A stretch of DNA of 64,000 nucleotides from Conexibacter woesei Iso977N (GTDB taxonomy: Bacteria; Actinomycetota; Thermoleophilia; Solirubrobacterales; Solirubrobacteraceae): assembly GCF_000424625.1 (NCBI RefSeq), contig NZ_AUKG01000001.1, positions 1,984,001 through 2,048,000 on the forward strand, in the 5' to 3' direction. The translations under genes were made by a program, and so were the position numbers. The notes beneath the pieces are model-generated. The model was not told the DNA's origin. It did not search any database and saw nothing but the letters and a program-made list of their open reading frames with translations. Positions 7,678-49,085 of this stretch are shown here, one piece after another (the stretch's first letter is position 1; each line of letters opens with the position of its first letter).

Positions 7678-7732
7678 GCGCGCGGGTTCGCCCCGGGGCG
7701 CCGAGCCGCTCCGTCGGGGGCGCTTCGAGTCA

Positions 7733-7759
7733 CCCCGCTCCGCCGGGCGTGGAGCGGGG
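7733..7759. terminator. Hairpin between convergent genes
   Basis: A perfect 9-bp stem (CCCCGCTCC / GGAGCGGGG) with a 9-base loop lies 55 bases past the stop at 7677. There is no T-run on either side, so it could be a hairpin-only terminator. The rest of 7678-7951 is GC-rich and I see no gene in it. Confidence 0.4.
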
Positions 7760-7951
7760 CGCAGGCGCGCCTCCGCGCGGTGTCGTGCTGCGGCGTGTCG
7801 TGGCGAACGAGTGGAGTCCCGCGCCGCGGTCCACTTCGTGGGCTGCGGCGCTGCCGCCTGTGGAATGGCTTCGGCGCGGCGCGCCGCTGCGACGTCCGCG
7901 GAGTGGCGTGTGGCGCGACGTCGTTGCGCCCCATGCTGGACCGCGGGAGCG

Positions 7952-44622: not shown

Positions 44623-45525
44623 TCAATCGTCGTCGATGCGCAGACCAGCGAGTCCCTCGTAGCACTCGATGATCGCCGCGAAGTCCGCGTCGCCGTACCC
44701 GCGCCCAACCGCTGCAACCAGGGCGTCCCGGGCGGAATTCGCCGCCGGGAAGGGGACGCCGGCGCGCTGCGCCTCCTCGATGCAGAGGCGCACGTCCTTG
44801 AGCATGTGCTCGGTCTTGAAGAGCGTCGCGTAAGCGTGCTGACGCATCGGTTCCGCTTTGAGTCCGACCATCGTCGAGTTGCCCGATCCGGCGGCCAGGA
44901 TCTGCGTCAGCGCCTCCAGATCGACGCCCGTTCCCGCACCCATCACGAGCGCCTGGGCGAGCGTCGCGGCGTTGGCCGCGGCGACCGCGTTGTTGATGAG
45001 CTTGATGATCTGCCCGTGGCCCAGCGCGCCGACGTGCACGATCGTGGTGCCCATCGCCTCCAGCGCCGGCATGGCCCGTGTGACATCGGTCTCACTACCG
45101 CCGGCCATGATCGTCAGCGTCCCATCCTCGGCCCGCGGCGACGAGCCGGTGACCGGCGCATCGACGAACCGCAGGTCCCTTTCGGCGAGCCGCGCGCCGA
45201 TGTCCCGCGCATCCTCCGGGGCGATCGTCGACATGTCGACGAACAGCGTCCCGGAGGCCGCGGCGGGCGCTGCGGCATCCGGCCCATCGAGCAACAACCG
45301 CCGCACCTGATCGCCATCGACGACCATCGTGACGACGACATCCGCACCCGCGACCGCCTCAGCGGGCGTTGTTACAGCAGTAGCTCCCGGATGCCTCTCG
45401 GCCCACCTCGCGGCCTTCCCCTCCGTATGGGTCCACGCCCGGACCTCGAACCCCTTCGCCTCCAGGTTCGCCGCCATCCGCGAACCCATGATGCCCAGCC
45501 CCAGGAAGCCCACTGTCGTCGCCAT
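44623..45525 (-). CDS. Beta-hydroxyacid dehydrogenase (3-hydroxyisobutyrate type)
   Basis: A 300-residue NAD(P)-dependent dehydrogenase. The nucleotide motif is VGFLGLGIMGSRMAANL; the substrate motif is VDAPVTGSSPRAEDGTLTIM and the catalytic lysine lies in GHGQIIKLINNAVAA. Substrates in this family include 3-hydroxyisobutyrate, tartronate semialdehyde and related acids. No further pathway genes are nearby. A TAGGTT box lies six bases upstream of the ATG. Confidence 0.9.
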   Translation of the reverse strand: MATTVGFLGLGIMGSRMAANLEAKGFEVRAWTHTEGKAARWAERHPGATAVTTPAEAVAGADVVVTMVVDGDQVRRLLLDGPDAAAPAAASGTLFVDMSTIAPEDARDIGARLAERDLRFVDAPVTGSSPRAEDGTLTIMAGGSETDVTRAMPALEAMGTTIVHVGALGHGQIIKLINNAVAAANAATLAQALVMGAGTGVDLEALTQILAAGSGNSTMVGLKAEPMRQHAYATLFKTEHMLKDVRLCIEEAQRAGVPFPAANSARDALVAAVGRGYGDADFAAIIECYEGLAGLRIDDD

Positions 45526-45531
45526 GCGGCG

Positions 45532-45537
45532 AACCTA
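45532..45537 (-). promoter_or_regulatory. -10 box TAGGTT (minus strand)
   Basis: Ends 6 bases before the dehydrogenase ATG at 45525; leaderless start likely. Confidence 0.5.
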
Positions 45538-45679
45538 CCGAGCCGCCGTGGTGTCCCGCTCGCTGCGCGGGTGGTGCTGCGAGGCCGCCGCTGTCGGGCA
45601 TCGATGGCGAAGGCGTCTGCGCGGCGCGACCGTGCGCGGTGTGGCTCGGCCGGAGGGTGGGACCGGTGCGCGCGACGTC

Positions 45680-45720
45680 AACGGCAGACAGGTGTTCGCA
45701 GAGAACACCGAACTGCCGTT
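45680..45720. repeat. Inner hairpin 1 of the inverted-repeat element
   Basis: AACGGCAG and CTGCCGTT pair as an outer stem; GGTGTTC and GAACACC (45691-45697 with 45703-45709) pair inside, around the loop GCAGA. A three-base bulge lies on each side. Confidence 0.75.
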
Positions 45721-45731
45721 CACCCCCCAGA

Positions 45732-45766
45732 GGTGCATTTGGGTTCGCATAGGACCCAAATGCACC
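45732..45766. repeat. Inner hairpin 2 of the inverted-repeat element
   Basis: A perfect 13-bp stem GGTGCATTTGGGT / ACCCAAATGCACC with a nine-base loop. It is less GC-rich than its surroundings. Confidence 0.8.
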
Positions 45767-45968
45767 GTTGACCAACGCTTCGGTCCCGAACCCTCGCCCG
45801 TCCCGGCACCAGGCCGAGCCACACCGCGAACGCCGGCATCGCCACCAACGCCACTCGCCCTCGATGCCCGACCGCAAACGCACCACATCACCACCCACGC
45901 CGCGAGCTGAACGCCACGGGCGCCCGCGCCCGGGCCCGCGCGCCGCCCTCAACGCAACGAAGCGCTCC

Positions 45969-48900
45969 TCAGGCCACCGCCACCGAGTCATCACCCTCGA
46001 TGCCCAACCGGTGGGCCACCGCAGCAGCCTCCGTGCGGGAGCGCACGTCGAGCTTGGCGAGGATCCGGGACACGTGGACCGAGGCTGTTTTCTCGGCCAT
46101 GAAGAGCTCTTCGCCGATCTGGCGGTTCGTGCGGCCCTGGGCGACCAAGGCGAGGACGTCGCGTTCGCGGGGCGTCAGGCCCAGCTCGGCGGCCGGGTCG
46201 GTGACGGCGGCCGCGGGTGTTGTTGGGGTGCTTGGTGTCGCGGGCCTCGCTGCCGCGTCGGCGACGGCCTGCGGCGGGACGTCGAAGCGCAGGCGGCCGC
46301 GGCGCGCCAGCGCGGTCAGCTCCTCGATCACCCAGGCGGCGCCCAGCCGGGTCGCCAGCGCCAGCGCGTCGCTGCCGGCGGCCTCGGCGCGGGCGCGGTC
46401 GCCGGTGGCCAGCGAGGCCTCGGCCTCGCGCCAGCGCACGCGCGCAACCCGGAATGGCCGATCGATCGCGGCCCACGCGTCGGCGGCGCGTGCCCACAGC
46501 TCCGGGTCGGGCGTGCCGGTCGCGTCGACGGCCTCGGCCTCGGCGACCAGGACCATCGCGGCGGCCTCGGGCATCGCCGCGGCGAACGTGCGTGACGCGG
46601 CCTCGCGCGCCTGGTCGGCGTAGGCGCGCGCGGCGGCGACCGCCGCGGCCTCGTCGTCGGGCCGGCCCAGGTCGCGCGCCTGCTGCGCGGCGTCGGCCTC
46701 GACGCCCGCCGCCGAGGAGAAGATCCGCGCCAGCCGCGCGCCGTCGGCCATCGCCTCGGTCTCGGTCAGCCGCTCCAGGCCCATCCGGATCGCGGCGCGC
46801 GCGGCGACGATGTTGCGTTCGCGCCGCTCCAGGCCCGCGAGCATCGCGGTGATCGGCGCGTGCCACTGCGGCTCGTAGGAGCGCGCGACGAGGTCGCGGG
46901 CGATCACGAGGCGCTCGCGCGCATCGGCGTTGTCGCCGCGGCCGAGCGACAGCGACGCCCGCGTCAGCTCGTAGAAGACGCGCGTCGTGCCCTGCGTGAC
47001 CCGCCCGAGCTCGAGCGGGACCAGCTCGTCGGCCTCGTCCCAGAAGCCCAGGTCATAGGCGATCTCGGCCTGCTGGATCGCCAGCCAGTTCGCGCGGCGG
47101 CCGAGCTCCCGGACCTCCTTGCGCCCCTGGACCAGCAGCTTGCGCGCCGCGTGCGTGTCGCCCGTGAAGTGCAGCGCGTCGGAGAGGTTGAGGTAGGAGC
47201 GCAGCAGCTGGTCGACGTCGCCGTCGGCCCGTGCCATCGCCATCGCCTCGCGGATCGTCGCGAACCCGCGCGAGGTGTCGCCGCCGCCGCGCAGGCAGAC
47301 GCCCTTCGTGTTGAGCGCATGGATCCGGACGCTGCGGGCGCCGACCGCGTCGGCCACCTCGAGCGCCTCGTCGGCCATCTCCAGCGCGTCGCTGTAGCGA
47401 CCCCACAGCATCAGCCCCGACGCCTTGGCGGCCAGCAGCTGCGCGCGCTCCTTGCTCGGCGGCACGACGGGCAGGAGCGCCAACGCCGCGTCCCACGCCT
47501 CCAGCGCGATCTGGCCCTTGCCGGAGTTCCAGCGCGCCTTGCCCAGGCGCTCCAGCAGCAGGGCGGCGCGGCCCGGCTCGCGCTCCTCGTCGATCTCGCC
47601 CAGCGCGCGCTTGAGCAGGTGGATGCAGCGCGAGTAGTCGAACTGGTTGGCGTTCGCCGCGCGCGAGAGCAGGTCGACGTGGTCGCACCCGGCCAGCGCC
47701 TCCGGGTCCACGACGCGATCCCACAGGACCAGCGCCCGCTCGTAGAAGACGGCGGCCTCGCCCTCGGCGTGGACGCGCTCGGCGGTCAGCGCCGCCCGGA
47801 TCGCGGTGCGCAGCGCGGCCGGCTGGTCGCCGGCGGCGTCGAAGTGGTGGGCGATCTCGGCGGCCTGGTCCAGGCCGATGCACGGCGAGGCGGCCAGGCG
47901 CTCCTCCAGCACCGTGGCCAGCCGCAGGTGCAGCTCGCCGACCTCGCCGGGGAGCAGGTCGTCGTACACCGCCTCGCGCAGCAGGGCGTGGCGGAAGGCG
48001 ATCCGGCCGTCGAACTGCGAGGCGAGGACGTGGTGGGCGACCGCCTCGCGCAGCGCGTGGCGCAGCTCGAGCGGGTCGAGCTGCGACGCCTCTTCAAGGA
48101 CATCATGTTCGATGCGCTGCGCCGCCGAGACCCAGCGCAGCGCGTCCTGCGTCATCTCGCCGAGCGCCTCGACGCGCAGCATCAGCGCGTCGCGCAGCGA
48201 CTCCGGCAGCGTGCCGTCGCCCTCGCGCTCGGCCGCCAGGATCTCCTCCGCGAACAGCGGGTTGCCCTCCGAGCGGGCCCAGACGCGGTCGAGCAGGTCC
48301 TCGTCGGGCTGGGCCCCGAGGATCGCCGCGACCTGCTCGGAGATCTCCTCGAGCGTGAAGCGCTCGACCGGCACGCGCGACGCGCGCTCGGTCCGCTCGA
48401 TCTCCGCCAGGAACGGGCGCAGCGGGTGGCGGCGGTGGAGCTCGTCAACGCGGAACGTCGACACCACCAACAACCGCTGCGAGCAGACGTTGCGGGCCAG
48501 GAACGCGAGGAAGTCGCGAGTGGAGCGGTCGGCCCAGTGGAGGTCGTCGATGACGAGCAGGACCGGCGACTCCTCCGAGAGCTTCTCGAAGAGCATCAGC
48601 AGCAGCTCGAACAGGCGGCCCTGGGCGGAGCCCGCGTAGGGCTCGACGATCAGGTCGCCCGGGGTGCCGAGCTCAGGGAGGAGCCTGGCCAGCTCGGCGC
48701 GCTGCGGGCCGAGCTGCTCGAAGACGGGATGGCCGGAGCGGACGAGCGAGCGCAGCGCCGACACCAGCGGCGCGTAGGGCAGCTCGGAGTCGCCAAGGTC
48801 GATGCAGTCGCCCCAGAGGACGCGCGTGCCGCCGGCCTTGGCGCGCTCGGCGAAGTGGTCGACCAGACGCGACTTGCCGATGCCCGACTCGCCGGCGACG

Positions 48901-49085
48901 AACACGAGGCCCGCCTGGCAGGCGGTCCCCGGTCCATGCGCAGCGGTCATCAGCGCCGCGTCGAGCTGAGCAAGCTCGACGCGACGCCCGATGAAGGCGT
49001 CGCTGGTCACGCGAGCGGGCATGCCCGGGGGATTCTCGCGCAACCGGCGCCGTGCGGTCAGGTCGGTGATCGGTTGAGGGGTCAA
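45969..49085 (-). CDS. Large ATP-binding LuxR-family regulator (LAL/MalT type)
   Basis: A 1038-residue protein. The N-terminal ATPase has Walker A (VAGESGIGKSRLV, about 63-75) and Walker B (PVLLVIDDLHWADRSTRDF). The long middle is helical, TPR-like. The C-terminal LuxR HTH (about 960-1030) reads LTPRERDVLALVAQGRTNRQ and EKTASVHVSRILAKL. Such regulators activate transcription when a ligand and ATP are bound. TTG 49085 opens the frame; ATG 49022 is equally plausible and gives 1017 residues. The repeats at 49361-49431 lie in the divergent region upstream. Confidence 0.9.
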   Translation of the reverse strand: MTPQPITDLTARRRLRENPPGMPARVTSDAFIGRRVELAQLDAALMTAAHGPGTACQAGLVFVAGESGIGKSRLVDHFAERAKAGGTRVLWGDCIDLGDSELPYAPLVSALRSLVRSGHPVFEQLGPQRAELARLLPELGTPGDLIVEPYAGSAQGRLFELLLMLFEKLSEESPVLLVIDDLHWADRSTRDFLAFLARNVCSQRLLVVSTFRVDELHRRHPLRPFLAEIERTERASRVPVERFTLEEISEQVAAILGAQPDEDLLDRVWARSEGNPLFAEEILAAEREGDGTLPESLRDALMLRVEALGEMTQDALRWVSAAQRIEHDVLEEASQLDPLELRHALREAVAHHVLASQFDGRIAFRHALLREAVYDDLLPGEVGELHLRLATVLEERLAASPCIGLDQAAEIAHHFDAAGDQPAALRTAIRAALTAERVHAEGEAAVFYERALVLWDRVVDPEALAGCDHVDLLSRAANANQFDYSRCIHLLKRALGEIDEEREPGRAALLLERLGKARWNSGKGQIALEAWDAALALLPVVPPSKERAQLLAAKASGLMLWGRYSDALEMADEALEVADAVGARSVRIHALNTKGVCLRGGGDTSRGFATIREAMAMARADGDVDQLLRSYLNLSDALHFTGDTHAARKLLVQGRKEVRELGRRANWLAIQQAEIAYDLGFWDEADELVPLELGRVTQGTTRVFYELTRASLSLGRGDNADARERLVIARDLVARSYEPQWHAPITAMLAGLERRERNIVAARAAIRMGLERLTETEAMADGARLARIFSSAAGVEADAAQQARDLGRPDDEAAAVAAARAYADQAREAASRTFAAAMPEAAAMVLVAEAEAVDATGTPDPELWARAADAWAAIDRPFRVARVRWREAEASLATGDRARAEAAGSDALALATRLGAAWVIEELTALARRGRLRFDVPPQAVADAAARPATPSTPTTPAAAVTDPAAELGLTPRERDVLALVAQGRTNRQIGEELFMAEKTASVHVSRILAKLDVRSRTEAAAVAHRLGIEGDDSVAVA

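Follow-up and report, generated by a model that had tools for sequence, protein, structure and literature searches.

A mosaic palindromic intergenic repeat of one bacterial genus, with a putative two-way role at transcript ends

Results

Structure of the palindrome

The window analysed here, a stretch of 64,000 nucleotides from Conexibacter woesei Iso977N, contains a palindrome of about 400 bases (~45535-45930, window coordinates). On balance, and with slightly better than even confidence, we read it as a copy of an intergenic repeat of the BIME/MITE kind that is palindromic, mosaic, non-autonomous and restricted to one genus, and that acts as a two-way transcript-end element. Copies of the family are dispersed, modular, absent at orthologous sites and found preferentially at gene 3' ends.

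The palindrome consists of a G/T-rich arm, two 47-bp hairpins and an inverted, C/A-rich copy of the arm. Across the family the arms enclose one or two such hairpins. The features of the window copy are as follows.

44623..45525, - strand: flanking gene, outside the element; NAD-binding 3-hydroxyisobutyrate/6-phosphogluconate dehydrogenase-like (PF03446, 2e-47; PF14833, 3e-28)
45535..45675: left arm, G/T-rich on the + strand; contains GTCGGGCATCGATGG and GCGGTGTGGCTCGG
45677..45723: core hairpin hp1, GTCAACGGCAG...CTGCCGTTCAC, 47 bp, loop GCAGA (G000:C1:2029677-2029723; hairpin model E 7e-13)
45726..45772: core hairpin hp2, ends CCCAAATGCACCGTTGAC, 47 bp, loop GCATA (G000:C1:2029726-2029772; hairpin model E 8.7e-8)
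45777..45930: right arm, C/A-rich on the + strand; outer end at ~45930-45940
45541..45993: stretch matching a 56-bp intergenic/3' segment at the orthologous locus (empty site) of G001, from site comparison
45969..49010, - strand: flanking gene, outside the element; AAA ATPase-LuxR regulator whose stop adjoins the right arm (PF13191, 4e-29; PF00196, 2e-18)

An inverted-repeat search paired the arms in an outer segment (45539-45610 with 45855-45926; 72 nt, 75% complementary) and an inner segment (45631-45666 with 45797-45832; 36 nt, 81% complementary). The sequence-only reading had described opposed arms with perfect 17-bp and 12-bp blocks, and two strong hairpins each preceded by GTCAACGG. All of these were located. 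The blocks are CGCGGTGTGGCTCGGCC/GGCCGAGCCACACCGCG and GTCGGGCATCGA/TCGATGCCCGAC, respectively; in the right arm a degenerate TTCGGTCCCGAA palindrome comes first, then GGCCGAGCCACACCGCG and TCGATGCCCGAC. The GTCAACGG sequence lies on the outer side of both hairpins (+ strand at 45677, - strand starting at 45772). Arm model R2 matched the left arm at 45548-45648 (G000:C1:2029548-2029648, - strand; E 3.2e-14) and the right arm at 45815-45917 (E 6.6e-16). Compared with the empty orthologous site, the extra DNA covers ~45541-45993; the element is thus slightly longer than the 45543-45922 first assigned to it.

The RNA fold of 45535-45925 had an energy of -251.7 kcal/mol, against -174.5 +/- 6.2 for shuffled sequences (z -12.6; 0 of 100 shuffles). 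Hence, the structure of the palindrome is far beyond chance. Folded alone, the hairpins gave z scores of -4.7 and -7.7.

Copies in the same genome

The sequence-only reading had named an arm search of the genome as its check, and a lack of further copies anywhere as the outcome that would speak against it. In the genome that carries the window (G000; 5.7 Mb, 9 contigs), a blastn-type search returned 76 matches. The arm model identified 25 arms at ~14 loci; most of these loci have a pair of arms directed outward on either side of a hairpin core. The hairpin model identified ~45 places, of which ~21 are solo hairpins without arms. Hairpins hp1 and hp2 occur solo, paired, in inverted orientations and between arms; one element has a core of a third hairpin type (L018), and another is apparently cut by an assembly break (end of contig C3, start of C2). 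The adverse outcome clearly did not arise. The suggestion that the palindrome is a small family's repeat present in two inverted copies therefore fits the data well: the genome holds many copies and the arms behave as repeat units. The element contains no ORF, and indels in the arm alignment are not multiples of three.

A set of 29 hairpins from G000 was compared. Each carries GTCAACGG/CCGTTGAC-like sequence at its two ends, and no constant one-sided tag (GTAG or CGTC) was found among them. The loop contains AT in 22 of the 29 (CATA/TATG-like). In the stems, 87.4% of cells were paired, compared with 78.9% in shuffles, and 65 double changes were counted where 33 were expected; this covariation is partly a mere difference between two hairpin classes.

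Three other places in this genome deserve mention. At L027 544-1514 (G000:C1:996344-997313) two solo hp1 hairpins surround one small ORF with no family assigned by search; the downstream hairpin provides its stop codon, TAG. At L131 1972-2671 the gap between convergent genes spans 700 bp, against 5 bp in G001, and holds a solo hairpin and tandem copies of another repeat (GGCGGAGACCGGCAAACGGTCGCGGTGT...). An identical 129-aa gene at L133 2053-2442 and L134 1-390 (end of contig C1, start of C4) likely marks an assembly overlap.

Distribution and modularity in relatives

We surveyed 121 genomes of the bacterial family with the arm model; most carry no copy. Many arms were found only in G000 (25) and the same-genus genome G001 (32 arms, ~20 loci). 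A few copies were present in G004 and G005, which belong to the same genus and are both fragmented assemblies; the remaining genomes gave scattered weak arm matches only. The repeat thus appears to be restricted to one genus. No matches to the G000 hairpin pattern were obtained in a wider contig collection. With the G001 arm pattern, the 27 matches obtained there are all betaproteobacterial; they have a constant length of 65 bases and were judged an unrelated coding match. Searches of phages, plasmids and viral contigs drew no match, and a phage or plasmid origin was rejected.

Elements of G001 keep the arms and flanking TTCGGGGCCGAA palindromes, 12-bp sequences that bracket the core in most of them, but their core hairpin stems are mostly other than those of G000. 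One G001 element, L154, has G000-type hairpins. Loops remain similar: among the cores listed from G001, G004 and G005, nearly all contain AT or TA there. One orthologous gene pair is occupied in both G001 and G005; the cores have diverged (GATCGCGTCAAGTCCGCG... and GATCGCACCTAGCCCGCG...) and each is still paired. Such exchange of hairpin cores within conserved arms is unusual.

The two arms of an element show little sign of having evolved together. In G001, arm similarity was 0.743 within elements and 0.766 between elements, so there is no own-arm excess and no co-evolution signal. In G000 the signal was marginal, own-element arms being only slightly more alike than arms across elements (permutation p 0.046). 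Own arms do not co-vary in G001, so a hairpin flanked by two inverted repeats describes the palindrome better than a single conserved RNA does. The sequence-only reading had also offered a long structured RNA; this is not supported here, and no Rfam model matched the window. We regard it as very improbable that the element encodes a long, conserved and structured non-coding RNA, or an RNA that regulates the flanking genes locally: the very stable fold would suit this reading, but the many copies stand beside unrelated genes, the G001 orthologous site lacks the element, and such empty sites mostly refute it. In particular, a single-locus regulatory RNA was rejected on the further copies and the empty orthologous site.

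Orthologous sites with and without the element

At 11 orthologous sites the element is present in one of G000 and G001 and absent from the other. Of seven G000 sites examined in G001, six lack it. Gap lengths were as follows.

Window site: 453 bp in G000, 56 bp in G001
L118: 548 bp in G000, 12 bp in G001
L112: 669 bp in G000, abutting genes in G001
L116: 438 bp in G000, 229 bp in G001
L122: 586 bp in G000, 117 bp in G001
L117: element in G000, none in G001; the extra DNA is more than the element
L144: 406 bp in G001, ~0 bp in G000
L159: 424 bp in G001, 62 bp in G000
L147: 447 bp in G001, 98 bp in G000
L151: 464 bp in G001, 55 bp in G000
L161: 461 bp in G001, 36 bp in G000

One site (L121/L158) is occupied in both genomes. 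Mobility of the family is, on these comparisons, well supported, and the earlier description of a MITE-like element agrees with them. Insertion at the empty sites, rather than loss, would be the simpler reading, because three other genomes of the genus have zero or one weak arm match. No clear target-site duplication was seen; element ends are fuzzy and the flanks only ~85% identical, and the palindrome often extends to the stop codons, with no sharp ends definable.

No transposase matching the element ends was found in G000, and in neither G000 nor G001 do two adjacent arms bracket an insert the size of a gene, as would be expected of a parent transposon. G000 has a single IS200-like (Y1_Tnp) transposase gene (G000:C2:303556-303885; L049 1234-1860). 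This Y1/RAYT gene was rejected as the cognate enzyme, since it is flanked by a CGGCTGAGCCG... palindrome and not by hp1/hp2-type hairpins. The palindrome beside its stop, CGGCTGAGCCG...AGCCG, is possibly a separate REP system.

Gene context and chromosomal position

Gene orientations came from a gene caller based on codon usage, for which the window served as training sequence. In G001, 17 of 20 loci lie between convergent genes, usually no more than tens of bases from both stop codons (binomial p ~8e-10 against 20%). The G000 elements comprise 5 convergent, 8 tandem and 0 divergent cases (0/13 divergent), with 2 at contig ends without an assigned context. The window copy itself is not convergent: it lies between the stop of the LuxR-type regulator and the start of the dehydrogenase, both on the - strand, with the outer edge of its left arm ~10 nt upstream of the dehydrogenase start codon (complement of 45525). 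Overall, copies prefer 3' ends, usually filling the gap in the G001 convergent cases. Avoidance of promoters could by itself also produce this preference. Convergent intergenic regions of bacteria are generally enriched for stem-loops (PMC1590033).

Convergent junctions make up 10 of the 63 in the window, and 9 of them have gaps of -31 to +10 nt. The elements therefore create space where convergent genes normally have none. Another long convergent gap, of 274 bp and strongly strand-biased, lies at window 7678-7951; the other window convergent gaps are near zero.

A 222-kb interval at 1.32-1.54 Mb contains eight of the 20 G001 copies, a clustering reached in 0 of 20,000 simulations, for an interval width picked post hoc. 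This cluster is mid-replichore, since dnaA lies at ~1.1 kb in G001. Seven of 14 G000 loci lie from C3:432 kb to C2:788 kb. Where tested, this stretch shares synteny with the region of the G001 cluster, the synteny being partly extrapolated. Thus the clusters (G001:C1:1321000-1544000 and G000:C3:432k-C2:788k) occupy one syntenic region although most single sites differ.

Discussion

Comparison with known repeats

BIME/REP sequences of enterobacteria, Pseudomonas and Stenotrophomonas are mosaics of inverted palindromic hairpins; they are intergenic and species-specific, prefer 3' or convergent positions and show compensatory stem changes (PMC2817692, PMC3733652, PMC1525189). The element resembles them as a set of short palindromic intergenic repeats, mosaic and inverted, with compensatory stem changes and a bias towards 3' intergenic space, whether convergent or unidirectional. 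It differs in its hairpins (47 bp, with stems up to 21 bp, rather than 20-40 bp), its long conserved outer arms, its tens of copies only, the missing GTAG/CGTC tag and the lack, in G000, of a cognate REP-flanked transposase. REPIN/RAYT systems likewise use two inverted hairpins as one mobile unit, and G000 does have one Y1 gene, but the sequence flanking that gene is not the hairpin of the element. With the tag absent and a cognate RAYT not found, the element is not REP-type in the strict sense. Like bacterial MITEs it is non-coding, dispersed, a few hundred bp long and bounded by terminal inverted repeats, and it is present or absent at orthologous sites. Conversely, its arms are fuzzy, some of them with additional tandem modules, no clear target-site duplication was seen at the sites compared, and no parent transposon with its ends was found in G000 or G001.

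Bidirectional or 'I-shaped' (U-less) terminators of high-GC bacteria place a strong hairpin right after stop codons, often for two convergent genes. The strong hairpin of the element is likewise just past stop codons and often common to two convergent genes. It differs in being embedded in a large repeat that moves, and its termination activity is putative.

A possible role at transcript ends

The arms are mirror images in composition (left, G 0.49/C 0.23; right, C 0.50/G 0.23). Therefore, a transcript arriving from either side first passes an arm rich in G and U, next the hairpins, and lastly an arm rich in C and poor in G. The first arm and the hairpins would together form a strong hairpin end; the C-rich, G-poor arm would provide a Rho-loading-like tract. 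A hairpin followed by a T-tract, the canonical intrinsic terminator, was absent from 45400-46100. In this respect the sequence-only reading, which called the palindrome too structured for a terminator, was correct; the position just after stop codons nevertheless suggests a transcript-end role. Published reports describe REP elements as aids to Rho-dependent termination with a preference for convergent space (PMC2817692, PMC1525189). Together with the order of arm composition, these reports lead us to propose that a repeat of mobile origin is probably tolerated, or put to use, as a two-way element at transcript ends, offering a hairpin and a C-rich tract to either strand.

The element has two inverted arms of ~150 nt enclosing one or two interchangeable 40-50-bp hairpins, which are also found solo. 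Copies may spread by an enzyme or by replication-based copying, and would be kept where they are least harmful or somewhat useful, between gene 3' ends. There the hairpin could define or protect the mRNA end, and the C-rich, G-poor arm, reached past the centre, could favour Rho-type release. The element would then be a two-way transcript-end barrier, and the family would function like the enterobacterial BIME.

Alternative explanations

A possible, though less probable, alternative is a purely selfish MITE/REP-like repeat, spread by a transposase and gathered at gene ends as the least harmful place, with no host function. Differences in occupancy between congeners, confinement to one genus, the lack of an ORF and the existence of both solo and composite forms are all as expected for such a repeat, and the G001 cluster could be local spread. 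Harder to accommodate are the survival of stem complementarity through stem replacement across species, the spacing of copies no more than tens of nt from both stop codons, and the failure to find a mobilising enzyme in G000 or a clear target duplication at the sites compared.

A bolder form of our preferred reading, which we consider rather unlikely, is a modular mobile 'gene-end barrier'. Here an arm cassette with exchangeable well-paired hairpins and an AT-containing loop (often CATA/TATG) would be copied into near-zero convergent gaps by a new hairpin-recognising mobilisation system, giving both genes a shared two-way terminator.

It is quite unlikely that the repeat is chiefly a DNA-level chromosome element, in which gyrase, a recombinase or a nucleoid protein would bind the conserved arm motifs GAGCCACACCG and TTCGGSSCCGAA, and what counts would be the supercoiling between chromosome domains or between convergent genes. 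A species-limited distribution and turnover of sites would be odd for a needed chromosome site, even though arm sequence is conserved across two species without co-varying as a stem, 12-bp palindromes surround most G001 cores, and the G001 cluster is mirrored by half of the G000 loci in a stretch of partly extrapolated synteny.

Significance

In a limited literature search we found no description of such repeats in this bacterial group. The transcript-end repeat proposed here adds a well-resolved palindromic family with empty sites in a high-GC genus. It also offers a natural experiment: the same convergent gene pairs occur with and without the element in two relatives. These paired sites allow the effect of a BIME-like repeat on transcript ends, antisense read-through and gene spacing to be measured directly.
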